A stretch of 64,000 bases of DNA, taken from contig NZ_JAAIKB010000003.1 of NCBI RefSeq assembly GCF_011040385.1, forward strand, positions 124,001 through 188,000. The letters are read 5' to 3'. The notes below the pieces were generated by a model, which was given only the letters and a program-made list of their open reading frames with translations, had not been told where the DNA came from and did no database searches. A program made the position numbers and the translations under genes. The stretch comes from Falsiroseomonas algicola (GTDB taxonomy: Bacteria; Pseudomonadota; Alphaproteobacteria; Acetobacterales; Acetobacteraceae). This document shows positions 27,924 through 49,099 of the stretch, one piece after another; position 1 is the first letter of the stretch; every line of letters starts with the position of its first letter.

Positions 27924-28000
27924 GGACCCGTAGCTCAATTGGATAGAGCACCAGACTACGGATCTGGGGGTTAGGAGTTCGAATCTCTTCGGGTCCGCCA
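27924..28000 (+). tRNA. tRNA-Arg (anticodon ACG)
   Basis: A 77-nt cloverleaf. Acceptor stem GGACCCG pairs with CGGGTCC, followed by discriminator G and an encoded CCA. The D arm is GCTC/GAGC, and the anticodon stem CCAGA/TCTGG encloses CTACGGA, giving anticodon ACG (wobble A expected to become inosine; reads CGU, CGC, CGA). The T arm has the TTCGAAT loop. A terminator follows 31 nt later. Confidence 0.97.
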
Positions 28001-28160: not shown

Positions 28161-29522
28161 ATGACCGTCGCCGGCAGCAAGCCCGCCCCTCCCGTCACCC
28201 TCCCTGATGTGCCCGCCCTGCCTGGCGGCGGGCTGCTCGGCCATCTGCGCGCCATGGCGGCGGCGCCCCACAGCTTCCCGGCCGCCGCGCTCCAGGCCCA
28301 TGGCGGCATCATCGGCATCCGGATCGGCCCGCGGCGCGTCGTCGCCATCGGCCGCCCGGACCTGGCGCGGGAGGTGCTGGTGACGCGGGCGGACCGCTAT
28401 CCCCGCGGCCGCATCAACCGGAACCTTGGCGCCGTCATCGGCGACGGGCTGCTGGCAACGGAGGGCGACCTCTGGCGCGCCCGCCGCCGGCGGATGCAAC
28501 CCTCCTTCCGCGCGGACCGGCTCGGCGCCCTGGCCGCCACGACGGATGCGGTGATGGGGGACGCCTTCGCCACCTGGCAGGGCGGCCCGATCGATGCCGG
28601 CGAGGAAGCCGCGCGCATCGCCATCCGCGTCATCGGCGGCGTGCTGCTGTCCCGTCGGATCGAGGAGGGGGAGGGCAGTGCCTTCGTCGCGGCTGTGCAG
28701 GACTGCCTGGCGCAGCTCATGCGCCGGAACTGGTCCCTCATCCGCTGGCCGCTCTGGGTGCCGGTCCCGGTCAACCGCGCCGTCAACGCCACCCGCCGCA
28801 CGCTCGAAGCCTTCCTGGGCGAGGAATTGGACCGTCGCCTCGCTGCGCCGGACGCGCAGCCCGATGACCTGCTGGCGGCGCTGATCCGCGGCCGGCCGGA
28901 CGACCCGCCGCTGCCGCGCCAGGCCCTGCTGAACGAGCTCAAGACCCTCTTCGCCGCGGGGTTCGAGACGACGGCGACGGCGCTGACCTGGCTGATGTAC
29001 ATTCTGGCCCACCATCCCGGCGTCGCGGATGCCCTGCGGGACGAAGCCCTGCCGGTGCTGGGCGACCGCGCCCCCATGCCCGCGGACCTGCCACGCCTGC
29101 CCTATGCCGCGGCGGTGGTGGAGGAGGCGATGCGGCTCTTCCCGCCGGTCTACAATATGGGCCGGGACTGTGCGGCGGATGATGACCTCGGCGGCTTCCG
29201 CATCCGCGCCGGCACCACCGTCGTTGTCTCGATCTTCGCCATCCACCGCAGCCCGGACCTCTGGGAGGCACCGGAGCAGTTCCGCCCGGACCGCTTCCTC
29301 GGCGCCGGCGCTGCCGCCCGGCGCAACCTTCTGCCCTATGCCTGGGGCCGCCACCAATGCATCGGCAACCACTTCGCCGACCTGGAACTGGTGGTGGCGC
29401 TGCTGGCCCTGGTGCGGCGCTACCGGCTGGACCTGGTGGAGGAAGCGCCCGTCGGCCTCCGTGGCCGCACCACCCTGGCGCCGGACCGTCCGATCCTGCT
29501 GCGCCCGGTACCGCTGGCATGA
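28161..29522 (+). CDS. Cytochrome P450
   Basis: A 453-residue soluble P450. The I-helix AAGFETTATAL (about 262-272) carries the oxygen-activating Thr; EEAMRLFPP (about 322-330) contains the ExxR pair; the heme loop YAWGRHQCIG has the thiolate Cys at about 400 but Tyr where Phe is usual in FxxGxxxCxG. Length and the RRRRMQPSF C-helix resemble fatty-acid/terpene-type bacterial P450s. No redox partner is adjacent. An in-frame TTG exists at 28140; ATG 28161 is preferred. The stop overlaps the next ATG (ATGA). First gene of a six-gene operon. Confidence 0.92.
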   Translation: MTVAGSKPAPPVTLPDVPALPGGGLLGHLRAMAAAPHSFPAAALQAHGGIIGIRIGPRRVVAIGRPDLAREVLVTRADRYPRGRINRNLGAVIGDGLLATEGDLWRARRRRMQPSFRADRLGALAATTDAVMGDAFATWQGGPIDAGEEAARIAIRVIGGVLLSRRIEEGEGSAFVAAVQDCLAQLMRRNWSLIRWPLWVPVPVNRAVNATRRTLEAFLGEELDRRLAAPDAQPDDLLAALIRGRPDDPPLPRQALLNELKTLFAAGFETTATALTWLMYILAHHPGVADALRDEALPVLGDRAPMPADLPRLPYAAAVVEEAMRLFPPVYNMGRDCAADDDLGGFRIRAGTTVVVSIFAIHRSPDLWEAPEQFRPDRFLGAGAAARRNLLPYAWGRHQCIGNHFADLELVVALLALVRRYRLDLVEEAPVGLRGRTTLAPDRPILLRPVPLA

Positions 29523-30088
29523 GGATCCTGCCGCCTGGCCTCGCGGGGTTCGAGGTGCTGGACGCCGCCGACTCCGTCGCCGTGCTGGCCTATGAACGCG
29601 CCTTCTACCGCGCCTTCGAACCCATCCGGCCTGCCGGCCTGCTGCGGCGCCTCTGGGAATGGGATGACACGGCCGGGCGTATAGCCGCGCCAGTGCCCTA
29701 TGCCGACCAGGTGGTCTACCTGCTGCGCGATGCGACGGGCGAGGTGCGGCGCGGGCTGGCCGTGAACCTGGCGCTCCGGACCGTGCAGGCGGCGCGCTTC
29801 GGCTTCAGCGTGCCGGCCGCCCCCGGCGTGGCGGAGATGCTGACCTTCTTCGCCGCCGGGCCGCATGACCTGCGCGGCGCGCTCCGCTTCCGCCGCGCCT
29901 GCTACGCCGACCTCCGCGCCCGCGGCTTCCACACGGGCTATGGCACCGCCCGCCGCCGCCCGCTGCCGGCCTATGGCCGCTTCGGGACGGAGGTCGTCGA
30001 GGAACGCTGGATCAACGGCGAGGCCCGTTTCCTGCTGCGCTTCGACCTGGCGGCGGATTTCTCGCGGGGCCAGGGCGGGGGCGCATGA
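29519..30088 (+). CDS. Probable GNAT-fold N-acyltransferase (FeeM/autoinducer-synthase-like)
   Basis: A 189-residue protein. The N-terminal half has a strand-helix start (GFEVLDAADSVAVLAYERAF), then paired strands (DQVVYLLRDATGEVRRGLAV); the C-terminal part (ALRFRRACYADLRARGFHTG then PLPAYGRFGTEVVEE) looks like the helix and final strands of GNAT enzymes, where a line such as 'pLyrrlGF' is common. This resembles acyl-ACP-using members such as FeeM, which make N-acyl amino acids. The assignment is inferred from pattern, without a certain motif. It overlaps the P450 and the adaptor gene by 4 nt on both sides, so it belongs to their pathway. Confidence 0.5.
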   Translation: MRILPPGLAGFEVLDAADSVAVLAYERAFYRAFEPIRPAGLLRRLWEWDDTAGRIAAPVPYADQVVYLLRDATGEVRRGLAVNLALRTVQAARFGFSVPAAPGVAEMLTFFAAGPHDLRGALRFRRACYADLRARGFHTGYGTARRRPLPAYGRFGTEVVEERWINGEARFLLRFDLAADFSRGQGGGA

Positions 30089-31101
30089 GGCGCCGCCTCT
30101 GGCTGCTCGGCCTGATCGTGCTGGCGGCGCCGGCCGCGCTGCTGCTGCCGCGCCCGGATGGTCCCGCGCCGGCGGCCCAATCGCCGGCCGCGCCCGCCTC
30201 GCTGGTGGCGCGCGGACGGATCGAGCCGGAGGGCCGCGTCATCGCCCTCCATGGCCCCTATCGCAGCGTGCTGGGGCGCGTGATGGCGGAGGAGGGGCAG
30301 GCGGTCGCCGCTGGGCAGGTGGTCGCGCTGCTCGACACCCATGCGGCGGCGGAGGCGCAGGTGGGGGCCGCCCGGGCGCGCCTGGCCCTGGCGCAGGCCG
30401 AGGAAGCGCAGGTCGCGGCCCCGGCCAAGCCCGGCGTCATCCTGGCCCAGCGCGCCCTGGTCCGGGCGCGGGAGGCGGAGCTGACCCTGGCGCGCCAGGA
30501 ACACGCCCGCATCGCGACGCTGCGCGCCACCAGCATCGCCGCCCAGGCCACGCTGGAACAGCGCCAGGCGGAGCTGGAACGGGCCGAGGCCGCGCTCCGC
30601 CAGGCGGAGGCCGAACTGCGCGCCCTGAGCGAGGTGCGGGAGGAGGATCGCCGCGCCGCCGCCGCCCGCACCGCCGTGCAGCGGGCCGCGCTGGCGGAGG
30701 CCGAGGCCGAGCTGGCCCGCACCACGATCCGCGCCCCCTTCGCCGGCACCGTGCTGGCGCTGCTCCGCCGGGGCGGGGAGAGCATCGGGGACGAGGGCAT
30801 CCTGCAGATGGCGGCGCTCGACCGGCTGGTGGTGGTGGCCGAGGTGGAGGAGGCGGATGCACCCCGCCTCGCCCCCGGCCAGGCCGCGCGCATCAGCGGC
30901 CGCGTGCTGGCGGCACCGGTGGAGGGCCGGGTGGAGAGCGTCGGCCGCCTGGTCATGCGCCAGCGCCGCATGAGCTCGGATGTGCTGGTCGGCCGCGACG
31001 CCCGCATCGTGGAGGTCACGATCCGCCCGCAGGGTCCGCTGCCGCCGGTGGTGGGGGCGGAGGTGGAGGTGCGCATTCCCCTGGGCACGCCGCGCCCGTG
31101 A
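30085..31101 (+). CDS. HlyD/DevB-type periplasmic adaptor subunit
   Basis: A 338-residue membrane-fusion protein. One N-terminal anchor (RRLWLLGLIVLAAPAALLLP) is followed by VARGRIEPEGRVIAL, the usual DevB opening, a split lipoyl half-motif (SVLGRVMAEEGQAVAAGQVV), a long Ala/Glu-rich coiled-coil hairpin (about 85-205), the second lipoyl half (TTIRAPFAGTVLALL, about 213-227) and a beta-barrel. It should connect the DevC/ATPase pair to a TolC-like outer-membrane channel, which is not encoded here. The stop overlaps the permease start. Confidence 0.88.
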   Translation: MRRRLWLLGLIVLAAPAALLLPRPDGPAPAAQSPAAPASLVARGRIEPEGRVIALHGPYRSVLGRVMAEEGQAVAAGQVVALLDTHAAAEAQVGAARARLALAQAEEAQVAAPAKPGVILAQRALVRAREAELTLARQEHARIATLRATSIAAQATLEQRQAELERAEAALRQAEAELRALSEVREEDRRAAAARTAVQRAALAEAEAELARTTIRAPFAGTVLALLRRGGESIGDEGILQMAALDRLVVVAEVEEADAPRLAPGQAARISGRVLAAPVEGRVESVGRLVMRQRRMSSDVLVGRDARIVEVTIRPQGPLPPVVGAEVEVRIPLGTPRP

Positions 31102-32285
31102 TGGCGCTGGCGCGCTTCGCCGCCCTGCTGGCCTTCCGCCAGCTGCGTCATCGCGCCCTCGCCTCCCTCGCCGCGCTGGCGGGCGTGGCGGTCGCGGTCA
31201 TGCTGATGCTGGTGCAGGTCGGTTTCCGCAACGGGCTCTATGACAGCGCGCTCGCCTTGCCGCGCGCGCTGGCGGCGGACCTCGTGCTGGTCAGCCCGGG
31301 CTACCGGGCGCTCACCTTCTCGCCGCCCTGGTTCCCGCGCGCGGCGCTGCGCGATGCGGCCGGGGTGGCGGGCGTGGCGGAGACCGCCAGCCTCTACGCC
31401 TATAGCAGCCAGGTCCGCAGCCCGGAGACGGGGGCCAACCTCTCCGTCTGGCTGCTCGGCATCGACCCAGCCGCCCGCGTGCTGGATCTGCCGGAGGTGG
31501 TGGCGGCGCAACGCGCGCTCTCGGTGCCGGAGACAGCGCTGCTGGACCGTCTGTCGCGCCAGGAATTCCGCGCCGTGGTGGACCAGGTGACGCGGGAGGG
31601 ACTGGCGCGCCTGCCGATCTACGCGCCGTCGGCGGACCTCGCCCCGGTGGTCACGGTGCGCGGCCTCTTCACCCTCGGTCCTTCCTTCACCATCGACGGC
31701 GCCCTGCTGGTGAGCGACCTGACGCTGCACGCCACGCTTGGCGTGCCGCTCGATCGGGTCTCGATCGGGCTGGTGCGGCTGGAGCCCGGCGCGCGGCCGG
31801 ACGCCGTGGCGGCGGCGATCGCGGCGCGCATCGAGGGCCGCGCGCGGGTGATGACGCGGGCGGCGTATCAGGAGGAGGAGCGGCATTTCTACGCCAGCCG
31901 CACGCCGATCGGCGTCATTTTCAATGTCGGCCTGCTGGTCGGCGTCGCGGTCGGCGTGGTGTTCATCCTTCAGGTGCTGAACGGCCTGGTGGATGCCAAC
32001 CTGCCGGAATATGCGGTGCTGCTGGCGCAGGGCTATCGCCCGGCCTTCCTGGCGGCGGTGGTGGCGCAGGCAGCGGTCGCCATCGCGCTCGTCACCTACC
32101 TGCCGGCACTCGGCCTGGCGCTGGGCGTGACCGGCGCGGCCTCCGGGATCACGCGCCTGCCGATCGGCCTGCATCCCGGCGACATGGCGATGGTGCTGGC
32201 GTTGAGCCTCGGCATGGCAGCGGTCGCGGCGGGACTCGCGATGCTGCGGCTGCGCCGGGCGGACCCGCTGGAGCTCTTCGGATGA
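31101..32285 (+). CDS. DevC-like ABC exporter permease (FtsX/MacB fold)
   Basis: A 394-residue permease with one N-terminal segment (about 20-40), a large periplasmic domain (about 45-270) and three C-terminal segments, the FtsX/MacB topology. LAFRQLRHRALASLAALAGV at the start and the closing RRADPLELFG are typical of DevC. It pairs with the next gene (ATPase) and the preceding adaptor. DevBCA in cyanobacteria exports envelope glycolipids; other family members export acylated small molecules. The start and stop both overlap neighbours. Confidence 0.87.
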   Translation: MALARFAALLAFRQLRHRALASLAALAGVAVAVMLMLVQVGFRNGLYDSALALPRALAADLVLVSPGYRALTFSPPWFPRAALRDAAGVAGVAETASLYAYSSQVRSPETGANLSVWLLGIDPAARVLDLPEVVAAQRALSVPETALLDRLSRQEFRAVVDQVTREGLARLPIYAPSADLAPVVTVRGLFTLGPSFTIDGALLVSDLTLHATLGVPLDRVSIGLVRLEPGARPDAVAAAIAARIEGRARVMTRAAYQEEERHFYASRTPIGVIFNVGLLVGVAVGVVFILQVLNGLVDANLPEYAVLLAQGYRPAFLAAVVAQAAVAIALVTYLPALGLALGVTGAASGITRLPIGLHPGDMAMVLALSLGMAAVAAGLAMLRLRRADPLELFG

Positions 32286-32962
32286 CCGCGCCGCTCGCCG
32301 CGCTGCGCGACATCGGCCATGGCTTCGGCAGCGGGGCGCAGCGCCGCGCCGTGCTGCGAGGCATCACGCTCGACCTCCATGCCGGGGAGTTCGTGGCGCT
32401 CACCGGTCCCTCGGGGTCGGGCAAGACCACGCTGCTGACGCTGCTGGGCGCGCTCCGGGTGCCGGAGGAGGGCGATCTCCGGCTGCTGGGCCAGGATCTG
32501 CGCGGGCTGGATGCGCGGGCGCTCGGCGCGCTCCGCCGCCGCATCGGCTTCGTCTTCCAGCGCCACCATCTGCTGCGGTCGCTGAGCGTGCTGGAGAATG
32601 TGGAGGCCGCGCTGCATGGCCAGCCCGATGCCGACCCGGCGCGGGACCGTGCCGCCGCGCTGGCGATGCTGGAGGCGGTCGGCCTCGGCGGCCGCGGCGC
32701 CGATTCCACCGCGCGCCTGTCGGGCGGCGAACAGCAGCGCGTGGCCGTGGCGCGCGCCCTGGTGCGCCGGCCCGCGCTGGTGCTGGCGGACGAACCGACG
32801 GCCTCGCTCGACGGGCGCAGCGGCCGTGCCGTGGTTTCGCTGTTGGCCGACCTCACACGCGGGCGGGATTGCGCCGTGGTGATGGGAACGCATGACGAGC
32901 GCTGCCTCGATCTCGTGACGCGGCGGCTGCACATGGAAGACGGGGTGCTGAAGCAGGGATGA
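32282..32962 (+). CDS. DevA/LolD-type ABC transporter ATPase
   Basis: A 226-residue nucleotide-binding subunit. Walker A GPSGSGKTTLL (about 41-51), Q-loop in FVFQRHHLLRSL, ABC signature RLSGGEQQRVAVARAL (about 141-156), Walker B LVLADEPT (about 162-169) and the switch His in GTHDE (about 203). Complete, so functional. Overlaps permease and acyltransferase genes by 4 nt each. Confidence 0.93.
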   Translation: MTAPLAALRDIGHGFGSGAQRRAVLRGITLDLHAGEFVALTGPSGSGKTTLLTLLGALRVPEEGDLRLLGQDLRGLDARALGALRRRIGFVFQRHHLLRSLSVLENVEAALHGQPDADPARDRAAALAMLEAVGLGGRGADSTARLSGGEQQRVAVARALVRRPALVLADEPTASLDGRSGRAVVSLLADLTRGRDCAVVMGTHDERCLDLVTRRLHMEDGVLKQG

Positions 32963-33750
32963 CGACGATGCCGGACTTCACCGAACGCCCCTGGCCGCCG
33001 CTGCGCGACCTCATCCTCGGCATGCTGTCGCTGCACCGGCCGCTGACCTTCCACGGCATGATCGAGGCTGATGTCACCCGCATCATGGAGGTGCTCGCGA
33101 AGCGGCGTCGTGCCGACCGCCAGGCCGTGTCGCTGCACGCCGTGCTGGTGGAAGCGGTGGCGGTCGCCGCGGCGCGCAACCCCGCCGTGCTGACCTTCCG
33201 CCACGGGAAGAAGCTGGTGACCTTCCGCGACGCCGATGTGGCGACGGTGGTGGACCGCAAGCAGCCCGACGGCACGCGGCTGCCCATGGGCCTGACGATC
33301 CGCGCGGCGCAGACCAAGGACGTGATGGCGATCCATGAGGAGCTGCGCGGCGCGCTGAAGGGCGATCTGACGGCGACGGAGGAGGTGAAGCGCCGCCGCC
33401 GCCTGCTGCGCCTGCCGAAGCCGCTGCGCGCGCTGGTGTTTCGCCGCATCGCGGCCGACCCGCATTTCCTGCGGCGCGTGCAGGGCACGATCGGGCTGAC
33501 CAGCCTGCAACGGCCCGGGCTCGATTTCCGCATGGTCGCCTTCCCGCCGAACCCCTTCACCGTCTCCGTCGCGGTAGGCGGGATCGAGACGCGGCCTGCG
33601 GTGGCCGGGGGCGCGCCGCGGCGCGTGCTGTCGCTGGGTGGCGCGATGGACCATGCGGTGATCGATGGCGCCGCGCTGGCGCGCTTCTGCATCACGCTGC
33701 AGCAGCGCCTGGCGGATGCGGAGGGGCTGGCCGGGCTGATCGAGGGGTAG
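32959..33750 (+). CDS. Stand-alone 2-oxoacid-dehydrogenase E2/CAT-fold acyltransferase domain protein
   Basis: A 263-residue protein that matches only the catalytic domain of E2 acyltransferases; lipoyl and peripheral-subunit domains are missing. The catalytic motif is DHAVIDGAALARF (about 231-243): the His-x3-Asp-Gly core is kept, but the usual Arg after His is Ala. The N-terminal half has the trimer-forming LHAVLVEAVAVAAARNP pattern. Acting without a lipoyl arm, it should use an acyl-CoA or acyl-ACP, as chloramphenicol acetyltransferase does. Last gene of the P450-exporter operon, overlapping the ATPase by 4 nt. Confidence 0.78.
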   Translation: MTTMPDFTERPWPPLRDLILGMLSLHRPLTFHGMIEADVTRIMEVLAKRRRADRQAVSLHAVLVEAVAVAAARNPAVLTFRHGKKLVTFRDADVATVVDRKQPDGTRLPMGLTIRAAQTKDVMAIHEELRGALKGDLTATEEVKRRRRLLRLPKPLRALVFRRIAADPHFLRRVQGTIGLTSLQRPGLDFRMVAFPPNPFTVSVAVGGIETRPAVAGGAPRRVLSLGGAMDHAVIDGAALARFCITLQQRLADAEGLAGLIEG

Positions 33751-33762
33751 CGCCGACCCGCG

Positions 33763-34449
33763 CTATGCCGGCACGCCCGGGTGCTTCATCAGCCCGCCAT
33801 GGCGCCCGGCCACATGCTCGAACAGCGCACGGTCCTCCCGCGTCACCGCCAGCAGCAATTCGCAGGTCGCGCTGTCCAGGTTGATGCGGCCCTGGCCGGC
33901 GGTCACGTTCTCCCGCTCCACCCGCCCCGGAACCACGCCGAGCCAGCGATGCAGCGTGGCGGAGACGTCGTTCACCCGCGCGCTGGTGCCGACCAGGGCG
34001 TAGCAGCCCTCCAGGATCGGGATCGCCTCCTTGGCGGAGGCGGCGCCGGTGAGCTGCCGGCAGGCTTCGCCGGCCAGGGCCTCGGCGGAATCGCGGATGA
34101 ATTCGGCGAAGCCGCGGTCGCGGAACTCGGCATGCAGCGGGTGGTCGGGCCAGGTGGCCATGTAGTTGAAGGCGGAAACCAGCCGCGCCACGGGGTCCCG
34201 CAGCAGCGTCACGAAGCGCGCATCGGGGCGGGCGCGTTCCAGCGCTTCGTTCACCGTCACATGGCCGCTCACCAGCGCGCAGCCCGCCACCTGGTCGGGC
34301 GTCATGGCCAGGAAGGCGGCGCGTTCGGCCTCGTCGCCGATGCGCAGCACGCTCTCGGGGGGCAGGGCGCGGACCAGCGCCGCGTGCAGCGCGAAGCCGC
34401 CGGTCTTGGGCAGGTGGATGAAGACCACCTGCGGCTGCGAGGTCACCAT
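33763..34449 (-). CDS. Sulfotransferase family protein (PAPS-dependent)
   Basis: A 228-residue P-loop protein. VVFIHLPKTGGFALH (about 8-22) is the 5'-phosphosulfate loop and FVTLLRDPVARLVSAFNYM (about 78-96) the 3'-phosphate-binding segment, as in carbohydrate and heparan-type sulfotransferases. Short for the family but with both PAPS sites. The ATG overlaps the upstream stop by one base (TGATG). The acceptor may be a surface polysaccharide, given the BcsB-like neighbour; this is inference. It converges on the P450 operon. Confidence 0.75.
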   Translation of the reverse strand: MVTSQPQVVFIHLPKTGGFALHAALVRALPPESVLRIGDEAERAAFLAMTPDQVAGCALVSGHVTVNEALERARPDARFVTLLRDPVARLVSAFNYMATWPDHPLHAEFRDRGFAEFIRDSAEALAGEACRQLTGAASAKEAIPILEGCYALVGTSARVNDVSATLHRWLGVVPGRVERENVTAGQGRINLDSATCELLLAVTREDRALFEHVAGRHGGLMKHPGVPA

Positions 34450-36431
34450 CAGGCCTCCACCCCCCGCCGTGGCCGAAGGAAGGCATAGACCACCAGCGCG
34501 AAACCCAGCACCCAGAGCACCGCCAGCACCCAGGGCCGCCAGACGAGGATCGCCGATCGCTCGGCCGGCGCCGCCACGGCGGGAAGGGTCGCGACCGCGG
34601 GTGTCGTCGCGGGGGCCTCCGCATAGGCCAGCCGGACCTCCGGCGCCGGTGCCTGGCTGGACCAGGCGAGGGCCACGCCCTGGCCATCCAGCAGCGCCAC
34701 GTCGCCCCGTTCCAGCCGGGGTGCGGCCGCGGGCAGGGCGGGCATCAGCGTCGGCAGGCGCAGCCAGAGGCCGGGCTGGCCACCCTCCGCCGTCACCAGC
34801 TGGGCCGCGATCAGGCGCTGCACGCCCTCGAGATCCAGCAGCGGGCGGCCATCACGGTCCGACAGGGTCAGCCGCCCCGCATCGAAGCGAAGGGCGGGCT
34901 GGCTGCCCGCGGGCGGTTCCGCCGTAACGGCGATGAAGGGGCCCGTGGGGCGCGGGGGCGCCGCACCCTCCCGCAGCGTCACCGTGACGGGGGCGGTTGC
35001 CGGGACCAGGCTGCGCAGCAGCCACAGCACGGGGTTCAGCGCCTCCGCCACCGGCCCGCCATCGGGCGAGTCCAGGATCACCTCCACCCCGCCGGCGAAG
35101 CGGCCGGGCAGGGCGAGGAAGTCACGGGCCGGAGCCGGCGGGGCGAGGCGCAGCATGCTGTCCGGCATCAGCTGCGCGAGGCCGCCGGCGGCGGGGCGCT
35201 GCAGCGTCACCACCAGCCGGTTGTCGAGCCGCAGCAGCGCGGGCGGCACCGGCAGGCTGAGCCGCGCCGGGCCCTCCGCCGGCAGTGCCGCGCTGCCCAG
35301 CATGGTGTCATTCAGCGTGGCGGTCGCGACACTCCAGCCACCGGCATCGGGCGTGAGGGTGAAGGCGAGGTCGATGGCCTGCGGCAGCCCGCCACCCGGC
35401 AGGTCGCGCAGGGAGAACTCCACCGCCCAGCCCGGCGTCGCGCCTTCCTGCGGCAGGGTGGCGCCGCGCAGCGCGGAGAAGGGCAGGGCGGTCGCCGCCG
35501 CATCCGGCGCGCGGGCATCCCGCACGGACAGCGTCGTGGCTGCCGCCGCGTCCCGCCAGGGGCCATCCAGCAGCCCCGCGGCCTGTTCGGGCTGCGGCCC
35601 ACCCAGCGCCAGCGCCGGCATGCCATCGAGGTCCAGCACCGCCGCGCCGGCAGGGCCGAGCCCCACCACCACGGCGCCGGTCGTCCAGAGCGGCTGTCCC
35701 CCAGGCCCGCGCCCGATCGAGGGCGGCGCGCCGGAGCCGATCCGCACCTCCCGCCCCGAACCCGCCAGCGCCAGGCCGATGCGCAGCGCCGCCGCGGCCT
35801 CGGCGGGCGGCAGCGGGCCGGGCCGGGTCAGGATCCGCGTCTCCCGCGGCAGCAGCCGGAACAGGGTGGCGACGGAGGGCGCGGCGCCGTCGGGCAGCAG
35901 CAGTGCCAGGTGGCTGTCGGCGCGCAGCGTCGCCAGCGCGCCGCCACCCTGGTCCACCAGCCGCAGCCCGAGCCGCAGCGCCGTGCCGTCCCGCGCCAGA
36001 TCCTCGGCCGGGATGGGCAGGTCGAGGGTGAGCCGCGTCTCGCCTTCCGCGAAGGCGCGGCTGGCGAGCACCCGGCCATTGGCCCAGACCTCCACCGCCT
36101 GGCGGCCGGCGAAGGGGGCGACGAGGTCGAAGGCGAAGCTGGCGCGGGCCGCGAGGCCGGGGATGTCCCGCGGCAGCGCGAAGGCCACTTCCCGCCCGGC
36201 GGTGCCGAAGGCGAGACCGGCCTCCAGCCCCAGCTCATCCAGCCCGACATGGCGTTCCAGCGGCGGCGGCGCGACCGGGGTGGGCGGCGGCAGCGGCTGG
36301 GCGGCCACCGGCGGCCGGGCTGCCGGGCGGGCGGGGCGCTGCTGCGCCGCCGCCGACAGCGGCAGCAGCGTCAGCGCGGCAAGGACCAGGCAGCGACCGG
36401 CGGCATGGGCAGTGGGGCGATGGGGTCGCAC
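34449..36431 (-). CDS. BcsB-like periplasmic protein with C-terminal membrane anchor
   Basis: A 660-residue exported protein. The GTG at 36431 (GAGG about 5 nt upstream) gives a clean signal peptide (RCLVLAALTLLPLSAAAQQ); an ATG at 36485 would add 18 residues. After a Pro-rich linker come repeated beta-rich domains with phrases such as AVEVWANGRVLASRAF and TATLNDTMLGSAALP, like the jelly-roll domains of the cellulose synthase subunit BcsB, and a single C-terminal helix (WVLAVLWVLGFALVVYAFL) with a basic tail. No bcsA is nearby, so it may serve another synthase. Family call is by architecture. Confidence 0.5.
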   Translation of the reverse strand: MRPHRPTAHAAGRCLVLAALTLLPLSAAAQQRPARPAARPPVAAQPLPPPTPVAPPPLERHVGLDELGLEAGLAFGTAGREVAFALPRDIPGLAARASFAFDLVAPFAGRQAVEVWANGRVLASRAFAEGETRLTLDLPIPAEDLARDGTALRLGLRLVDQGGGALATLRADSHLALLLPDGAAPSVATLFRLLPRETRILTRPGPLPPAEAAAALRIGLALAGSGREVRIGSGAPPSIGRGPGGQPLWTTGAVVVGLGPAGAAVLDLDGMPALALGGPQPEQAAGLLDGPWRDAAAATTLSVRDARAPDAAATALPFSALRGATLPQEGATPGWAVEFSLRDLPGGGLPQAIDLAFTLTPDAGGWSVATATLNDTMLGSAALPAEGPARLSLPVPPALLRLDNRLVVTLQRPAAGGLAQLMPDSMLRLAPPAPARDFLALPGRFAGGVEVILDSPDGGPVAEALNPVLWLLRSLVPATAPVTVTLREGAAPPRPTGPFIAVTAEPPAGSQPALRFDAGRLTLSDRDGRPLLDLEGVQRLIAAQLVTAEGGQPGLWLRLPTLMPALPAAAPRLERGDVALLDGQGVALAWSSQAPAPEVRLAYAEAPATTPAVATLPAVAAPAERSAILVWRPWVLAVLWVLGFALVVYAFLRPRRGVEA

Positions 36432-40600: not shown

Positions 40601-41683
40601 CAGCGCCGGGTCCTGGCGCATCGCCTGGATCATCGGCGCATCAGCGTCGAAGCCGTGGTCGCGCCGGGCCAGCGTCGTCGCCAGGTCCAGCCGGAAGCCG
40701 TCGAGCCCCGCCTGTTCCGCCCAATGCCGCAGCGCATCCATCGCCAGCCGCAGCCCCCAGTGGCGGTCGAGCGCCAGCGCATGGCCGCAGCCCGTGTCAT
40801 TGGCGTAGCGGCGCCGGTCATCGCCCCGCAGCCGGTAGAAATCGGCGTTGCCGAGGCCCTTCAGCGACAGCGTCGGGCCGAGTTCGTCACCCTCCCCGGT
40901 GTGGTTCAGCACCACATCCAGCACCACGGCGATGCCGGCGTCCTGCAGCGCGGCGACGGCGTCCCGCACCTCCGCCATGCCGCCCGGCGCCAGGCCGGGA
41001 TCGGGGGCCAGCAGCGCGGCCGGGTTGTAGCCCCAGTAATTAGCCAGGCCGAGCGGCGGAAGGTGCCTCTCATCCACCCAGGCCGCCGCCGGCAGCAGCT
41101 CCACGCAGGTCACGCCGAGGCCGCGGAGATGCGCGATCGCCGCGGGATGGGCGAGGCCCGCGAAGGTGCCGCGCAGCACCTCCGGGATCGCGGGATGCGT
41201 CGCCGTGAAGCCCTTCACGTGAAGCTCGTAGATCACCTGCGGCCCGCGCGGTGCATGGCGGCGGATGGGCGGCAGCGGCGGCGCCAGCACCGCCTTCGGC
41301 AGGAAGGGCGCGCTATCCGCGGCATCCGGCGCATCGCCGGTGTCGAACAGCGCCGGCGCCAGGGCGAAGCGGCGATCGATCTGCCGCGCCCAGGGATCGA
41401 CGAGGAGCTTGGCCGGGTTGAACCGGTGGCCGTTCCAGGGCTCGAAGGCCCCCTCCACGCGCAGCCCGTAGCGCGTGCCGGCGGCGATGCCCTCGACATG
41501 GCCGTGATGCACGGCGCCGTGCCGGCCAGGGAGGCGAATGCGGGCGATCTCGCGGTCCTGCGCGTCGAAGACGCAGACGAAGACCGCGGAGGCACCCGGC
41601 GCCGGCCAGGCGAAGTTCGCCCCGGTCTCGTCCAGCGTCGCGCCGAGCGGCTCGTGCGAACCCTCGGTTGCCTCAGCGCGCAT
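37664..41683 (-). CDS. glgX: Fusion of glycogen debranching enzyme GlgX and 4-alpha-glucanotransferase MalQ
   Basis: A 1339-residue two-enzyme protein. Residues about 1-665 are GlgX: a CBM48 start (GANFAWPAPGASAVFVCVFD), then the GH13 barrel with DGFRLDLATTL (nucleophile Asp, about 331), IAEPWDIG (acid Glu, about 367) and FVTAHDGFTL (about 440). Residues about 670-1339 are MalQ (GH77): ALRVDHVLGLRR (about 1103), VVGEDLGTVP (about 1149) and VATHDLATLAGFW (about 1203). Both catalytic triads are intact. The ATG at 41683 overlaps the glgA stop. The fusion would pass maltooligosaccharides from debranching to glucan transfer. Last gene of the glg operon. Confidence 0.92.
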   Translation of the reverse strand: MRAEATEGSHEPLGATLDETGANFAWPAPGASAVFVCVFDAQDREIARIRLPGRHGAVHHGHVEGIAAGTRYGLRVEGAFEPWNGHRFNPAKLLVDPWARQIDRRFALAPALFDTGDAPDAADSAPFLPKAVLAPPLPPIRRHAPRGPQVIYELHVKGFTATHPAIPEVLRGTFAGLAHPAAIAHLRGLGVTCVELLPAAAWVDERHLPPLGLANYWGYNPAALLAPDPGLAPGGMAEVRDAVAALQDAGIAVVLDVVLNHTGEGDELGPTLSLKGLGNADFYRLRGDDRRRYANDTGCGHALALDRHWGLRLAMDALRHWAEQAGLDGFRLDLATTLARRDHGFDADAPMIQAMRQDPALRDLLIIAEPWDIGHDGYRLGQFPPGWGEWNDRFRDDVRRFWRGDSGMVGALATRLAGSADTFRERSLADSVNFVTAHDGFTLADLVSFTAKRNHANGEDNRDGTDDNKSWNNGAEGPSDDPAIRARRQADARALLATLLLARGTPMLSMGDEAGRSQGGNNNAYAQDSALSWFDWAGADAGLAAFTRRLVAARLAHPALHATAPLTGVADADGVADVAWLRPDGAAMDRWEDHDCRALVALLQTGADRCLVALNAGDAAPFTLPPSRPGRAWRLLVDSSAPDATEVPETLPARAVLLLAEEAILARSPADDPALLAHLAREAGIDPIWHEISGQRHEVPVETLQALLGALGLSAGNRAAMRDSLARLSRPRALPPSVTLWPGQPLPMALADRPVMLRIACEDGSEHRVAVAPGDGETRRLIRADGSAAAERLVALPPLPEGRHLLFDEAAPESRCLITIAPPRCFLPPLLDRPRFGIAAQIYALRGAADQGIGDFSAVAALARAAAEQGASFLGLSPPHALIPTDRSRASPYHPSDRRFLDPIFIDVAGLPGGDAEIFAALARGESVDHAAVWAAKRAVLRAAWEASPRGDLPLPGSALARFCTWTAIAEAEGHSDSRRWPAGLRHGDDSGVADFAARHADAIDFAAFCQRLADDQLAAAGRAGAGLYRDLAVGAAPDGAEIWSGDGRFLPGFSVGAPPDPFSAEGQVWALPPPDPRHAMETGHAAFAGLIRANMRHAAALRVDHVLGLRRLFLVPDGARGGDGAYLAYPFEEMLGQLALESTRARCLVVGEDLGTVPAGIGEALQSAGILSYRVLWFEKEGTGFRPPAHYPPRAAACVATHDLATLAGFWSGADLDEREALALLADPAAERATRAAEREALCALLDAEGLLPDGAGPDQPMDDALAAAIHALVARTPSALMLVQAEDLAGETIAVNLPGTDRERPNWRRRLPVGAEALMALPRAQAILATLRGVRPG

Positions 41684-43115
41684 CGGCGATGGCGTCGCGG
41701 TACAGGGCCACGTAGCGCCTGGCCGACCGGGTCCAGGACACGTCGGTGGCCAGCGCATTCGCCTGCAGCCGCGCAAAGGCCTTGCGGTCCCGCCACAGCC
41801 CCGCCATGCGCCAGACCGCGGCTTCCAGCATCTCCCGCTGCACGGGCGCGAAATGCAGGCCGGTGCCGAGGCCCTGCGCCAGCGCCATCTCATTGGCGTC
41901 CACGACGGTATCCGTCAGCCCCCCGACATGCGCCACCAGGGGCACCGCGCCGTAGCGCAGCGCGCAGAGCTGCGCGAGGCCGCAGGGCTCGAAGCGGCTC
42001 GGCACCAGCACGACATCGGCGCCGCCATAGATCAGCCGCGCAAGCCCCTCGTCATAGCCGATCTCCGCGCCGATCCGGCCGGGATGCGCCCAGGCGGCGC
42101 CGCGCGCGCCATCCTCGATCCAGCGTTCCCCGGTGCCGAGCAGCGCCAGCTGCGCACCGCAGCCGAGGATGGAGGGGATGGCGCCCAGGATCAGGTCCAC
42201 GCCCTTCTGCCAGGTGAGGCGCCCGACGAAGCCCAGCAGCAGCGCGTCCGGGTTTTCCTCCAGCCCCAGGCGCCGTTGCAGCGCCGCCTTGTTCGCCGCG
42301 CGGCCCGCAAGCTTCGTCGCGCTGAAATTGGCGGCGAGGTGCCGGTCCTTCGCCGGGTCCCATTCGACGGTGTCGATGCCGTTGAGGATGCCGGAGACCG
42401 CGCCCGCGCGGCCGCGCAGCAGCCCGTCCAGCCCCATCCCGGCCTCCGGCGTACGGATTTCCGCGGCATAGGTGGGGGAGACGGTGGTGATGCGGTCGGC
42501 ATACCAAAGCCCGGCCTTCAGGAAGCCGAGCGCGCCGAAATACTCCAGCCCCTCCACCGACAGCGCCTGCGGCGGCAGGCCAAGACGCGGAAAGAGATCG
42601 AGCGGGAATTTGCCCTGGAACGCCAGGTTGTGGACGGTGAAGACGGAGGGCACGCGCTTCGCGCCGAAGCGGAGATAGGCCGGCGCCAGCCCGGCCTGCC
42701 AGTCATGCGCATGCACCACATCGAAGTTCAGCCCGCGCATCCCGCCCGTCGCGAGCAGGGAGGCGATGGCGCCGAGTGCCGCGAAGCGGAGCCCGTTGTC
42801 GCCCCACTCCCCGCCATCGGCGGCGAGGTACGGATTGCCCGCGCGGGCGTAGAGATGCGGCGCATCGATGGCGATGATGTCGAGCCCCGCGGCTTCTCCC
42901 CGCTGCAGCCGCGCAGGCCCGCCGAAGAGGTCATCGATCCGTCGCAGCGCCCGCCCGCCGCCGAGCGCCGCCATCACGGCGGGATAGCCCGGCAGCAGCG
43001 TGGTCACCTTCACGCCTTCCGCCGCCAGCGCCGCCGGCAGCGCGCCGGCGACATCGGCGAGGCCGCCGGTCTTGATCAGCGGCACGCATTCCGAGGCGAC
43101 GGAGAGGATCTTCAC
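41673..43115 (-). CDS. glgA: Glycogen synthase (ADP-glucose)
   Basis: A 480-residue GT5 enzyme. [13 protein letters not shown] (about 15-27) binds ADP-glucose; [13 protein letters not shown] (about 158) and the second-domain start [14 protein letters not shown] (about 293-306) are family marks, as is [20 protein letters not shown] (about 374-393). It extends alpha-1,4-glucan from ADP-glucose. The ATG overlaps the glgC stop by 4 nt and its stop overlaps the fusion gene start by 11 nt. Confidence 0.96.
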
Positions 43116-44383
43116 GACGCCAGGCGATCCAGCATCGCCTGGGTGATGAGGCAGATGCCCTTCTCCGTCCGGCGGAAGCGGCGCGCATCCTCCTCGGGAT
43201 CCTCGCCGACCACCATGCCCTCGGGGATCTTCACGCCGCGATCGACGACGACATTCGTGAGCCGCGCGCCGCGCCCGACATCGACATAGGGCAGGATCAC
43301 CGCGCCATCGATCTTCGCGTAGCTGTGCAGGTGCACGCCGGTGAACATCAGCGACTTCCGCGCAATGGCGCCGGAGACGATGCAGCCGCCCGAGACGAGG
43401 GAGGTGATGGCCTCGCCACGGCGCCCGTCCAGGTCGTGCACGAACTTCGCCGGCGGCGTCACCTCGGCGTAGGTCCAGATCGGCCAGTCGCGGTCATAGA
43501 GGTCGAGTTCCGGCACCACGTCCGTCAGGTCGATATTGGCCTCCCAATAGGCATCGACGGTCCCGACATCCCGCCAATAGGGCTTGGATTCAGCGCGAGA
43601 CCGCACGCAGGACCGTTCGAAGCGATGCGCCACGGCCTTACCGTGCTTGACCAGGTAGGGAATGATGTCGTGGCCGAAATCGCGCTGGGAATTCGGGTCC
43701 GCCGCGTCGCGCCGCAATTGGTCGAAGAGGAACTTCGTCTCGAAGACGTAGATTCCCATGGAGGCGAGGGCCAGGTCCTCACGCCCCGGGATCCCGGGCG
43801 GGTCCTTGGGCTTCTCCAGGAAATCGACGATCCGTGCATCCTGGTCCACATGCATGACGCCGAAGCCGCGCGCGTCGAGGCGTGGCACGGCGATGCAGCC
43901 CACCGTGACATCGGCGCCGCTCTCCACATGCTGCTGCAGCATGTGCTCGTAATCCTGCTTGTAGATGTGGTCGCCTGCCAGGATCACCATGTGGCGCGGG
44001 GCCAGATCCTCGATGATGTCGATGTTCTGGTACACGGCATCGGCGGTGCCGAGATACCAGTTCGCGCCATCGCCGCGCTGGCTCGCGGGCAGGATGTCGA
44101 AGGTCTCGTTCCGCTCCGGCCGCAGGAAGTTCCAGCCGCGCTGCAGGTGGCGGATCAGGCTGTGCGCCTTGTATTGCGTGGCGACGGCCAGGCGTCGGAT
44201 GCCGGAATTCATGGCATTCGACAGCGCGAAGTCGATGATGCGCGACTTGCCGCCGAAATAGACCGCGGGCTTGGCCCGGCGGTCCGTGAGTTCCATGAGG
44301 CGCGAGCCCCGCCCGCCCGCCAGCACGAAGGCCATCGCCGTCCTCGCCAGCGGGGCACTCGCCTGGGTCCTGCTATTCGGCAT
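43112..44383 (-). CDS. glgC: Glucose-1-phosphate adenylyltransferase
   Basis: A 423-residue ADP-glucose pyrophosphorylase, the control point of glycogen synthesis. [20 protein letters not shown] (about 17-36) is the nucleotide loop, GTADAVYQN and [14 protein letters not shown] follow, and the C-terminal left-handed beta-helix starts near [13 protein letters not shown]. Residues for allosteric activation cannot be judged by eye. The ATG at 44383 overlaps the glgB stop; longer upstream frames are Arg-rich and lie inside glgB. Confidence 0.96.
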
Positions 44384-46616
44384 CGCTCTCCCCTTTCTCG
44401 TCCTCCGGCGCCTCTTCCTCGGGCGCCGGACCCTCCGCCACCAGCCAGATGGTGCCGAGCGGCGGCACCGTAACCGTCGCGGAAGCAGGAAAGCCCTGGA
44501 AGGCCAGACGTTCCGCGACGACGCCACCGAGATTGCCGACGCCCGATCCGCCATACTCCGCGGCGTCGGTATTCAGCACCTCCCGCCAAACCCCGGCACG
44601 CGGCAGGCCGAAGCGCAGCCCGACATGCGGCACCGGCGTCATGTTGCAGATCATCGCCACCGGCGCGCCACCCTCTCCGTCAAAACGGAGCCAGGAAAAG
44701 ATCGATCGCGCCTCGTCATCCGCATCGATCCAGCGAAACCCCTCGGGCTCTGCATCCCTGGCGTGCAGCGCGGGCATCGACCGGTACAGCAGGTTGAGAT
44801 CGCGGACGAGCCGCTGCACGCCCTGGTGGGGGGCGAATTGCAGCAGCCACCAGTCGATCTCCCGCGCCTCCGACCATTCCCGCCACTGCGCGATCTCACC
44901 GCCCATGAACAGCAGCTTCTTGCCGGGATGCGCCCACATCATCGCGTAATAGGCGCGGAGCGTCGCGAAGCGCTGCCAGTCGTCGCCGGGCAGGCGCCCG
45001 AGCAGCGATCCCTTGCCGTGCACGACCTCGTCATGGCTGAGCGGCAGCACGAAATCCTCGGAGAAGGCGTACATCATCCCGAAGGTGATAAGCTTGTGGT
45101 GCCAGCGCCGGTGGATGGGATCGATCGCCACGTAGCGCAGCGTGTCGTTCATCCAGCCCATGTTCCACTTGTAGCGGAAGCCGAGCCCGCCCTTGGACGC
45201 GGGGCGGGAAACACCGGGCCAGGACGTCGCCTCCTCCGCGACCATGATGGCGCCGGGATGCTCCTCCTCCACCAGCGCATTCACCTGACGGAGGAACGCG
45301 ACGGCTTCGGGATTCTCCGTCCCGCCCTCCTTGTTCGGCGTCCACTCGCCCGGCGCGCGGCCGTGGTCGAGATGCACCATGGTGGAGACGGCATCGACGC
45401 GCAGCCCGTCCGCGTGGAACTCCTCCATCCAGTAGAGCGCGTTGGAGGCAAGGAAGGCCGCGACCTCCCGCCGTCCATAGTCGAAGACGGCCGTGCCCCA
45501 GGCGCGATGGAAGCCGCGCAGGGGATCGGGATGTTCGTAGAGCGTGCCGCCATCGAAGCGTGCCAGCCCATGCGCATCCTTCGGGAAATGCGCCGGCACC
45601 CAGTCCAGCAGCACGCCGATGCCCTGGGCGTGGCAGGCCGCGATGAAGCGCTTCAGACCCTCGGGGTCGCCGAGCCGCGCGGTCGGCGCATGCAGGCCGA
45701 TCGGCTGGTAGCCCCAGCTTTCGTCCAGCGGATGCTCCATCACCGGCATCAGCTCGATATGCGTGAAGCCCATCCAGGCGACATGCGGGATGAGGGAGGC
45801 GATGAGGTCATCCCAGTCGTAGAAGCGCTGGTCGGGATGCCGGCGCCATGACGGCGCATGAACCTCATAGATCGAGATCGGCGCGCGGCGCGATTGCGTC
45901 CCCGGCCGCGCGGCGACGAAATCCGCATCGTCCCACGCGAAGGGTGCGTCCGCCGGCACCAGCGACGCGGTCGAAGGGCGCATTTCCGCCGCGCGGCCGA
46001 AAGGGTCCGCCTTCAGCGGCTGCACCACGCCGTCGCGCGACAGGATCTCGTATTTGTAGGGCGTGCCGGCGCCGAGGCCGGGGATGAACAGCTCCCACAC
46101 CCCGCTGTCCACGCGCTTGCGCATGGGATGGCGCCGGCCATCCCAGCCGTTGAAGGCGCCGACGACGGAAACGCGCGCCGCATTCGGCGCCCAGACCGCG
46201 AACCGCGTGCCGTCCACGCCCTCATGCAGGGTGTGGTGCGCACCCAGCCGCTGGTGCAGCCGCCGATGCGTGCCTTCCAGCATCAGGTGGTCGTCGAGGG
46301 GGCCGAGCGTCTCCCCGAAGCGGTAGGGATCCTCGAACTCCCACGCGCCGCCATGGCGCTCGGCCCGCAGCCGGTAGCCGAAGGGCAGCGCCCGGCCGGG
46401 CAGCAACCCCTCGAAACACGCACCGTCGCGGCGGGGCAGGGGGGTGGCCGCGCTGCCATCCGCCGGCACCACCCACAGCGCCTCCACATCCGGCACCAGC
46501 GCGCGGATCACGAGGCCGCCCGGCGCCGCATGCGGGCCCAGCACGGCGAAGGGGTCGCCATGGCGCGCGGCGAGCAGGGCCTCCACGGCCCCCGGCGGCG
46601 CGCGCCAGGCCTCCAT
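44373..46616 (-). CDS. glgB: 1,4-alpha-glucan branching enzyme
   Basis: A 747-residue GH13 enzyme. An N-terminal CBM48-like region is followed by the barrel with [17 protein letters not shown] (nucleophile Asp), [12 protein letters not shown] (acid Glu) and [16 protein letters not shown]. It makes alpha-1,6 branches. The ATG at 46616 is used; a GTG at 46622 overlaps the glgP stop (GTGA) and is an equal alternative. The tail ([18 protein letters not shown]) is acidic and disordered. Confidence 0.95.
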
Positions 46617-46618
46617 GC

Positions 46619-49099
46619 TCACCGCTTCACCGGGACGTTCCAGATCTCCTGCGCATATTCGGCGATGGTGCGGTCGGAGGAGAACCAGCCCATGCTGGCG
46701 GTATTGATCACCGCCGACTTCCACCACGCCTCCGGGTTCCGCCAGCGTTCCGCGACCGCGCGCTGCGCGTCGTAGTAGCTGTCGAAATCCGCGGTCACGA
46801 GGAAGTAGTCGCTGCCACGGAGGTCGCGCACCAGGTCACGATACCGCGTGGGATCGTCGGGGGAGAAGACGCCGGCCTCGATCTGCTCCAGCGCCTCCTG
46901 CAGGCGGCGGGACTGGTCGACGGCACGCTGGCCCTGCCAGCCCTCCCGCCGGCGCTTCTCCACCTCCGGCGTCGTCAGGCCGAAGATGAAGATGTTCTCG
47001 TCCCCGACATGCTCCTTGATCTCGACATTGGCGCCGTCCAGCGTGCCGATGGTCAAGGCGCCATTCAGCGCGAACTTCATGTTGCCGGTGCCGGACGCCT
47101 CCATCCCCGCGGTGCTGATCTGCTCCGACAAATCGGCCGCCGGCACGATCATCTCCGCGAGGGAGACGTTGTAGTTCGGCAGGAACACCACCTTCAGCAG
47201 GTTGCGCACGGTGGGGTCGCTGTTGATCACGCGCGCCACGTCATGCGCCAGCTTGATGATGAGCTTGGCGCGGTGGTAGCTGGCCGCCGCCTTGCCGGCC
47301 ATGATCTTGACCCGCGGCGTCCAGTCCTTGGTCGGCTGGCTGCGGATCTCGTCATAGAGGGCCACGGCTTCCAGCACGTTCAGCAGCTGGCGCTTGTATT
47401 CGTGGATGCGCTTGATCTGCACGTCGAAGATGGCGTCGGGGTCGAGCCGCAGCTGGAAGCGGTCCCGCACCAGCGCCGCCAGCGCCTGCTTGTTGGCGCG
47501 CTTCACTGCCGCGAATTTCTCCTGGAAGGCCTTGTCGCCGGCGAGCGGCTTCAGCTTCACCAACGCCCCGGCATCGTCCAGCACCTCCGGCCCCACGGCG
47601 TCCACCAGCAGGGAGGTCAGGCCCGGGTTGCACTGCTGCAGCCAGCGCCGGAAGGTGATGCCGTTGGTCTTGTTGGTCAGGCGATCCGGGAAGAGCCGGT
47701 GGAAATCCGCGAAGACCGTCTGCTTCAGCAGGTCCGAATGCAGGGCGGAAACGCCGTTCACCTTGTGCGATCCGACCACCGCCAGGTGCCCCATGCGCAC
47801 GCGGCGGCCATGCCCTTCCTCGATCAGGGAGACGGAGGAGAGCAGACGACCGTCGCCGGGGTATTGCAGCCGCACGCTGTCCAGGTGGAAGGCGTTGACC
47901 AGGTAGATCAGCTGCATGTGCCGCGGCAGCAGGCGTTCCATCAGCGGCACCGGCCAGCTTTCCAGGGCCTCCGGCAGCAGCGTGTGGTTGGTGTAGCTGA
48001 TCGTCTTCTGCGTAATCGGCCAGGCCTCGTCCCAGGGGATGTCGTGCAGGTCGACCAGGATGCGCAGCAGCTCCGCCACCACGATGGCGGGGTGCGTGTC
48101 GTTCAGCTGGATGGAGACGCGGTCGGGCAGGGAGCGCAGATCGCCATAGACCCGCAGATGCCGCCGGATGAGGTCCTGCAGCGCGGCGGAGGAGAAGAAG
48201 TATTCCTGCCGCAGCCGCAATTCCTGCCCCGAGGCGCTTTCGTCCGAGGGGTAGAGCAGCTTGGAGATGCTCTCCGCCTTCACCTTGTTCGCCAGCGCAC
48301 CGACATGGTCGCCGGAGTTGAAGGCATCGAGCCGCAGCGGATCCATGGCGCGGGCGGACCACAGCCGCAGCGTGTTCACATGCGCGCCGCGCCAGCCGAC
48401 GATCGGCGTGTCATAGGCCACCGCCTGCACCGTCTCGCTCGGCTTCCACACATGCTTCACGCGGGCTTCGCTGATCGTCACGGCTTCCACCGTGCCGCCG
48501 AAGCCGATCTCATGCGCGATCTCGGGCCGGGCGAATTCCCAGGGGTTGCCGTCGTTCAGCCAGTCCTCGGGGTATTCGCGCTGCCAGCCATCGCGGATGA
48601 TCTGGCGGAACAGCCCGTGATCGTAGCGGATGCCATAGCCGAAGGCGGGGATGGAGAGCGTCGCCATGCTTTCCATGAAGCAGGCCGCGAGCCGCCCGAG
48701 GCCGCCATTCCCCAGCGCCGCATCGGGCTCCGCGATGCGCAGCTTCTCGAGATCCACGCCGAGCGGTTCCAGCGCATCCCGCAGCGTGTCGAGCAGGTTC
48801 AGGTTGCTGACATTGTCGCGCAGCAGCCGGCCGATGAGGAACTCCAGGCTGAGGTAGTAGACCTGCTTCGCGCCGGACTGGTAGGTGGCGCGCGTCAGGT
48901 CGATCCAGCGATCGACGATGCGGTCGCGCACCGCCAGCGCGGTGGCGATGAACCAGTCGCGGTCCCGCGCGCCGAGGCGGCTCTTGCCCAGGTCATAGGT
49001 CAGCTTCTGCAGGATCGCCCCGCGCAGCGCGGCGGCATCGGCGCTTTCCCCGGGCTTGGCCATGATGGGGGGTGCGCTCGACGTCGTCGGGGTGTCCAT
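46619..49099 (-). CDS. glgP: Glycogen/maltodextrin phosphorylase
   Basis: An 826-residue GT35 enzyme that releases glucose-1-phosphate from glucan chains. DAALGNGGLGRLAACFMESM (about 105-124) and the pyridoxal-phosphate site EASGTGNMKFALNG, with the Lys in the NMKF segment at about 650, are intact. The ATG at 49099 has AAGGAG upstream; the longer frame begins with non-family residues. The regulatory phosphorylation region of animal enzymes is absent, as usual in bacteria. It starts the contiguous glg block, 134 nt after glk. Confidence 0.95.
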   Translation of the reverse strand: MDTPTTSSAPPIMAKPGESADAAALRGAILQKLTYDLGKSRLGARDRDWFIATALAVRDRIVDRWIDLTRATYQSGAKQVYYLSLEFLIGRLLRDNVSNLNLLDTLRDALEPLGVDLEKLRIAEPDAALGNGGLGRLAACFMESMATLSIPAFGYGIRYDHGLFRQIIRDGWQREYPEDWLNDGNPWEFARPEIAHEIGFGGTVEAVTISEARVKHVWKPSETVQAVAYDTPIVGWRGAHVNTLRLWSARAMDPLRLDAFNSGDHVGALANKVKAESISKLLYPSDESASGQELRLRQEYFFSSAALQDLIRRHLRVYGDLRSLPDRVSIQLNDTHPAIVVAELLRILVDLHDIPWDEAWPITQKTISYTNHTLLPEALESWPVPLMERLLPRHMQLIYLVNAFHLDSVRLQYPGDGRLLSSVSLIEEGHGRRVRMGHLAVVGSHKVNGVSALHSDLLKQTVFADFHRLFPDRLTNKTNGITFRRWLQQCNPGLTSLLVDAVGPEVLDDAGALVKLKPLAGDKAFQEKFAAVKRANKQALAALVRDRFQLRLDPDAIFDVQIKRIHEYKRQLLNVLEAVALYDEIRSQPTKDWTPRVKIMAGKAAASYHRAKLIIKLAHDVARVINSDPTVRNLLKVVFLPNYNVSLAEMIVPAADLSEQISTAGMEASGTGNMKFALNGALTIGTLDGANVEIKEHVGDENIFIFGLTTPEVEKRRREGWQGQRAVDQSRRLQEALEQIEAGVFSPDDPTRYRDLVRDLRGSDYFLVTADFDSYYDAQRAVAERWRNPEAWWKSAVINTASMGWFSSDRTIAEYAQEIWNVPVKR

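Follow-up and report, generated by a model that had tools for sequence, protein, structure and literature searches.

The 64,000-nucleotide stretch analyzed here, from the genome of Falsiroseomonas algicola, a relative of the acetic acid bacteria (contig NZ_JAAIKB010000003.1, positions 124,001 to 188,000; hereafter, the window) contains a six-gene operon encoding a cytochrome P450, an acyltransferase with a predicted GNAT fold (P0002), the three components of a DevBCA-type exporter, and a lipoyl-less acyltransferase (P0006) related to the cores of dihydrolipoamide acyltransferases (E2) and to chloramphenicol acetyltransferase (CAT). The operon belongs to a rare, real and discrete module present in several lineages, which is a biosynthesis-and-export cluster of a known kind containing one new enzyme family. 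Its core, formed by the P450 and the two acyltransferases, stays together in distant lineages, and to these three enzymes some lineages have added the exporter. With moderate confidence, we propose that the operon constitutes a gain/loss cassette that makes an N-acyl amino compound, either a signal or an aminolipid, oxidizes it, acylates it a second time and exports it. No description of the six-gene combination was found in the open-access literature searched, in agreement with an earlier note on this DNA that had not recognized it as described.

Operon structure and gain or loss within the genus

The operon comprises six plus-strand genes (28161-33750), all of them confirmed as open reading frames at their previously assigned coordinates (Table 1). 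As first noticed in the earlier note, all five junctions overlap (5/5), compared with nine of the 34 other pairs of same-strand neighbors in the window, as defined by simple gene calls made for this analysis after dropping three low-scoring calls. Four of the junctions are ATGA-type overlaps of four bases, and DevB and DevC overlap by one base (TGATG, 31099-31103).

Within the genus, the gene encoding the GNAT-fold protein is present in the genome of the window and in three of 14 other genomes. The region containing tRNA-Arg(ACG) and the upstream gene, which from its sequence we take to be leuB-like, is kept in all 15. In two genomes without the cassette (L079 and L084), the sulfotransferase-like gene lies, respectively, about 85 and 130 bases past the tRNA, defining a clean empty site; the remaining nine of the 11 cassette-less genomes present other genes, no recognized window gene, or an early end. 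DevC orthologs (at least 86% identity) occur in exactly the four genomes that harbor the GNAT gene, and the other 11 contain only DevC paralogs (at most 35% identity over nearly the full length), so the exporter travels with the cassette in this genus. The best reading of this pattern is that the cassette is a unit of gain or loss at tRNA-Arg. The discrete unit suggested by the earlier note holds within the genus, where it is present or absent as a block.

A three-enzyme core in distant lineages

Two GNAT peptide patterns, searched against genome contigs, identified 18 loci, and later searches added L048, L049 and L055, giving a sample of 21 loci that is conditional on the GNAT gene. The P450 gene adjoins the GNAT gene in 16 of these loci, and an E2-like gene is found in 14. 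The L007 P450 and the L013 GNAT were counted from tblastn, whereas the L010 P450, which is in two pieces, and the L022 GNAT, which is broken over frames, were counted as present and kept out of the tree. The order P450-GNAT-E2 is found in Roseococcus (L010, L011), and the three-gene core also occurs in the Armatimonadota and in a Ramlibacter, with P450 and GNAT alone in a Phycisphaerales metagenome-assembled genome (MAG). Protein distances for the P450, the GNAT and the E2-like protein over 10 loci correlate at 0.95-0.965, a level reached in none of 5000 permutations.

The module presents additional partners in other lineages. A SerC-like aminotransferase gene is found in six of the 21 loci, always in the order SerC-E2-P450-GNAT; one of these is an unclassified MAG (L012), and the other five (L013, L014, L016, L048, L049) map to a single phylum, the Armatimonadota according to the titles of L014 and L016. 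The four of these six proteins that were scanned all score above the PRK05355 cut-off and obtain 532-559 of 563 bits for PRK12462. Three of four genomes with a SerC-like operon gene encode another SerC elsewhere, which makes the operon gene an extra copy in those genomes. Two further loci (L019, L021) contain PanD (aspartate decarboxylase; identity tested on L021) together with the P450 and without an E2-like gene. The presence of a SerC-like or PanD partner suggests an amino acceptor.

The module is rare. Including the genome on which each survey was centered, the GNAT gene was detected in 3/200 genomes of the window's family (Acetobacteraceae), 5/251 genomes of the L014 phylum and 3/349 genomes of the L022 family, one of them weak, and in the L021 class only in L021 itself (1/248). 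The co-conservation that the earlier note proposed to look for was found for the P450-GNAT-E2 linkage and not for the exporter, and the module is no specialty of the Acetobacteraceae.

The operon P450 matches PF00067 with an E-value of 2.4e-74 and contains the heme-Cys (YAWGRHQCIG), I-helix (AGFETT) and ExxR (EAMR) motifs. The first two motifs are present in all 15 module P450s examined, a set that leaves out L010 and L022 and for which the ExxR pattern allowed Leu at the final place. A tree was built from 15 P450s of the module and 12 near-full-length non-module P450s, the latter picked among the listed loci from module-carrying genomes. A branch with 99/97 support separates the module P450s from the others, and L014 and L015 form long branches.

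Several module loci showed other features. A second P450, convergent to the module and 30-33% identical to the references, is found in L013, L048 and L049 (Armatimonadota phylum). In L019 (4487-7627) and L021 (2566-5533), PanD is followed by a GNAT with an extra C-terminal region of about 200 aa lacking any Pfam match, and then by the P450. The genome of L014 contains another SerC-like gene (56% identical; L041:8167-11510) beside a 734-aa protein whose C-terminus appears ATP-grasp-like by eye, possibly another specialized use of the same SerC branch. In L017, L018, L020 and L023, the GNAT gene lies just upstream of a CoaBC-like flavoprotein gene (PF02441/PF04127). An EcsC-like gene immediately precedes it in L020 and L023; both assignments were tested on L020. 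These four cyanobacterium-like loci share petA- and petC-like neighbors, named from sequence. L017 (CALPNT020000005.1) is titled Bifidobacterium breve, and its cyanobacterial-looking photosynthesis neighbors suggest that the bin is probably mislabeled.

P0002 belongs to a new family of predicted acyltransferases

P0002 defines a new family of predicted acyltransferases, for which Pfam has no matching entry. The protein has no match in Pfam at E-values up to 1, which covers the GNAT and FeeM families named for a search in the earlier note, and none in a TIGRFAM-type library. Its structure model predicts a GNAT fold and provides a full-length match to FeeM (PDB 2g0b; Z 14.7), bearing out the earlier guess of a FeeM-like fold, and the closest solved folds, the acyl-homoserine lactone (AHL) synthases LasI, RpaI, MesI, BjaI and TofI, match the model better than FeeM does.

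The family alignment (A3) contains P0002 and 110 of 120 listed homologs, leaving out ten near-duplicates; P0007 (98% identical) was left out of alignment A1. PF21926 (FeeM) matches four of these 111 members at E-values up to 1 (best 0.03); the members match 17 families in all, and these do not include Pfam 13444 (OlsB-type). Profile comparison with the FeeM family, using 108 of the 111 rows chosen by length for both LuxI and FeeM, produced no meaningful alignment, and the window's own genome has no match to PF21926 or PF00765 (LuxI). Position 109, where in the weak register of the LuxI profile alignment the arginine of the LuxI ExxR motif would presumably fall, is T in 81, A in 17, V in nine, S in three and N in one of the 111 sequences. 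E106 is invariant (111/111) and, through the same weak alignment rather than residue-level superposition, may be equivalent to Glu95 of FeeM; enzymes of this type rely on an active-site Glu (PMC4897644).

P0006 is a lipoyl-less E2/CAT-fold protein

P0006 carries the E2 catalytic domain PF00198 (E 5.8e-14), its sole domain above a cut-off, and an HxxxDG motif, with neither a lipoyl nor a peripheral-subunit-binding (E3-binding) domain in the Pfam scan. A homolog search in which sequences above 1.75 times the query length were not candidates returned 62 matches: 51 with PF00198 alone, a 144-aa fragment with no listed domain, and ten with lipoyl domains. The latter score at most 71 bits and the other 52 at least 196 bits; P0006 and 50 of these 52 were aligned (A4), leaving out P0152 and the fragment P0178. 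P0006 and its homologs form a clade separate from lipoyl-bearing E2 enzymes, and residues 5-258 of the P0006 model align with CAT and with a Bacteroides O-acetyltransferase. Domain content, fold and clade all corroborate the earlier description of a lipoyl-less E2. At E-values up to 1e-12, a P0006-like protein was detected in one of 398 genomes of the window's phylum, namely the window's own.

An exporter added in particular lineages

DevB scores 148 bits against TIGR02971, above the cut-off of 129, whereas DevC (TIGR01185, its sole match; 230.5 bits, cut-off 290.35) and DevA (TIGR02982, its best match; 253.8 bits, cut-off 295.8) fall short. DevBCA genes are found near the core in five of the 21 loci, within the operon in L006-L009 and divergent in L015. 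In the window and in four further genomes, from two genera, they stand after the GNAT gene and before the E2-like gene, and neighboring genes overlap or almost touch. Roseococcus (L010, L011) has no DevB or DevC at these loci, and its only DevA-like matches there are ATPases with 30-39% identity. The earlier view of the exporter as part of a conserved unit was therefore not sustained: with five of 21 loci, the unlinking of genes that the earlier note had named as evidence against its unit does occur in part, for the exporter.

Proposed function and alternatives

The recurrence of the three-enzyme core in a distant phylum suggests that the cassette probably makes a fatty-acyl amino compound, of a so far undescribed kind. 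As to donor, acceptor, order of steps and product, we infer the following scheme. The LuxI/FeeM-fold enzyme would take a fatty acyl group from acyl carrier protein or coenzyme A and N-acylate a small amino acid or amine. The P450 would oxidize either the acyl chain or the head group, and the E2/CAT-fold enzyme would attach a second acyl group, most likely onto a hydroxyl. The resulting amphiphile may then be moved to the outer membrane or cell exterior by DevBCA, working with a TolC-type channel whose gene would lie outside the operon. In other lineages, the amino acceptor would come from the SerC-like enzyme or PanD encoded next to the core.

More tentatively, the module could represent a distinct way of making diacylated aminolipids or acyl-amino signals, combining a new LuxI/FeeM-fold N-acyltransferase family, a stand-alone E2-core O-acyltransferase and a P450. 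Phyla would share this module and equip it with head-group suppliers of different kinds (SerC-like, PanD) and, in some alphaproteobacteria, with a dedicated DevBCA exporter. As part of this same tentative proposal, the E2-like protein would be a pyruvate-dehydrogenase-type E2 core turned O-acyltransferase. The module offers a testable route to a class of acyl-amino compounds not yet known, and in it an enzyme of LuxI/FeeM fold is joined by a further acyltransferase. The analysis also defines a clade of E2 cores that lack carrier domains and are recruited beside a P450.

Several points weigh against the proposed function. By sequence, P0002 falls in neither the FeeM (PF21926) nor the LuxI (PF00765) family and may therefore act on a different substrate; its FeeM score is level with that of the next structure, an ordinary GNAT (Z 14.4), and the AHL synthase EsaI is 40th in the fold ranking (Z 12.4). 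The GNAT gene has none of the P450, E2-like, DevBCA, SerC-like and PanD neighbors in five of the 21 loci (L017, L018, L020, L023, L055), and most core loci have no DevBCA nearby. Common descent of the hosts contributes to the distance correlations, which may partly reflect species history. Domain scans identified no carrier protein, thioesterase or TolC among the six genes, to which the search for a TolC-type channel (HgdD) was confined. Lastly, some DevBCA paralogs are drug pumps (PMC8277102).

The position of AHL synthases as closest solved folds and the gain and loss within one genus would also suit a diffusible acyl signal. In that case the LuxI-fold enzyme would make a signal of AHL-like or N-acyl amino acid type, which the P450 and the E2-like enzyme would tailor and DevBCA would export. 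We consider this unlikely, since P0002 does not reach the LuxI family score, the ExxR arginine appears to be missing at position 109, in a weak register, and no receptor is encoded among the six genes, in a neighborhood annotated for one in part only. It is also improbable that the cassette tailors envelope lipids or polysaccharides. The E2/CAT-fold enzyme would then O-acylate a glycolipid or polymer already present, with the GNAT as accessory, a hydroxylated acyl donor would come from the P450, and DevBCA would export the lipid. The export of heterocyst glycolipids by DevBCA-HgdD in Anabaena (PMC8277102) and the alignment of P0006 with CAT and the O-acetyltransferase are consistent with such a role, but the partners SerC-like and PanD suggest that the acceptor is an amino compound, and DevBCA adjoins few loci. 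Detoxification or self-protection, in which the P450 and both acyltransferases would modify a foreign compound and DevBCA pump it out, appears quite improbable. CAT and some GNATs do inactivate drugs, and drug pumps are known among DevBCA paralogs, as cited above. Finally, the chance insertion of an unrelated DevBCA pump, sharing no substrate, into a P450-GNAT-E2 operon such as that of Roseococcus, without DevBCA in between, is highly improbable given the tight placement of DevBCA inside the operon, flanked by the GNAT and E2-like genes, both in the window and in four further genomes of two genera, its divergent position in another alphaproteobacterium (L015) and the identical distributions of DevC and GNAT in the genus.

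Neighboring genes

Beyond the sulfotransferase-like gene that borders the cassette, a minus-strand gene (34449-36308) encodes a 619-aa protein with no Pfam match at E-values up to 0.001 and lies between that gene and an FMN-dependent dehydrogenase gene; the protein is 50-55% identical in the three genus stretches having it. Minus-strand glycogen/starch genes occupy 41673-49063, with starch synthase and carbohydrate phosphorylase assigned by Pfam and a GlgC-like gene named from sequence, and a plus-strand gene (52272-55550) encodes a 1092-aa fusion of a transglutaminase-like domain and a DUF2126 putative amidoligase.

Table 1. Operon genes and bordering features, in window coordinates.
Feature	Position	Strand	Evidence
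tRNA-Arg(ACG), upstream border of the cassette	27924..28000	+	
Cytochrome P450, 453 aa	28161..29522	+	PF00067; heme-Cys, I-helix and ExxR motifs
Predicted LuxI/FeeM-like GNAT-fold acyltransferase (P0002), 189 aa, new family, invariant E106	29519..30088	+	Structure model
DevB-type membrane fusion (adaptor) protein, 338 aa	30085..31101	+	TIGR02971 above cut-off
DevC-like FtsX/MacB-type permease, 394 aa	31101..32285	+	TIGR01185 below cut-off; PF02687, PF12704
DevA/LolD-type ATPase, 226 aa	32282..32962	+	TIGR02982 best match, below cut-off
Lipoyl-less E2/CAT-fold acyltransferase (P0006), 263 aa, HxxxDG at H232-G237	32959..33750	+	PF00198
Sulfotransferase-like gene, convergent, downstream border	33763..34449	-	Weak Pfam match below cut-off

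Comparison with known systems

The cassette shares the devB-devC-devA order and an adaptor above the family cut-off with the cyanobacterial DevBCA-HgdD system, from which it differs in the sub-threshold scores of DevC and DevA, the lack of a TolC/HgdD gene in the operon and a host that, judging from its identity, is not a heterocyst former. P0006 has in common with E2 cores and CAT the fold and the HxxxDG motif. It departs from dihydrolipoamide acyltransferases in lacking lipoyl and E3-binding domains, in its separate clade and in the absence of E1 or E3 genes from the operon. LuxI-type AHL synthases (PF00765) provide the closest folds to P0002, yet there is no family match, and residues other than arginine occupy the ExxR position in the weak register. 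FeeM N-acyl amino acid synthases (PF21926) match over the full length in fold, at the level of an ordinary GNAT, and not in sequence family; unlike FeeM, P0002 is partnered with a P450 and an E2/CAT-fold enzyme. The review PMC11631085 gives further acylation of N-acyl amino acids as not reported to its date. It assigns OlsB-type N-acyltransferases to Pfam 13444 and describes ornithine- and glycine-lipid pathways (OlsBA, GlsBA) that add an O-acyltransferase. The cassette follows the same logic of an N-acyltransferase and a second acyltransferase, but its second enzyme has the E2/CAT fold, a P450 is added, and its GNAT-fold enzyme belongs to a family of its own.
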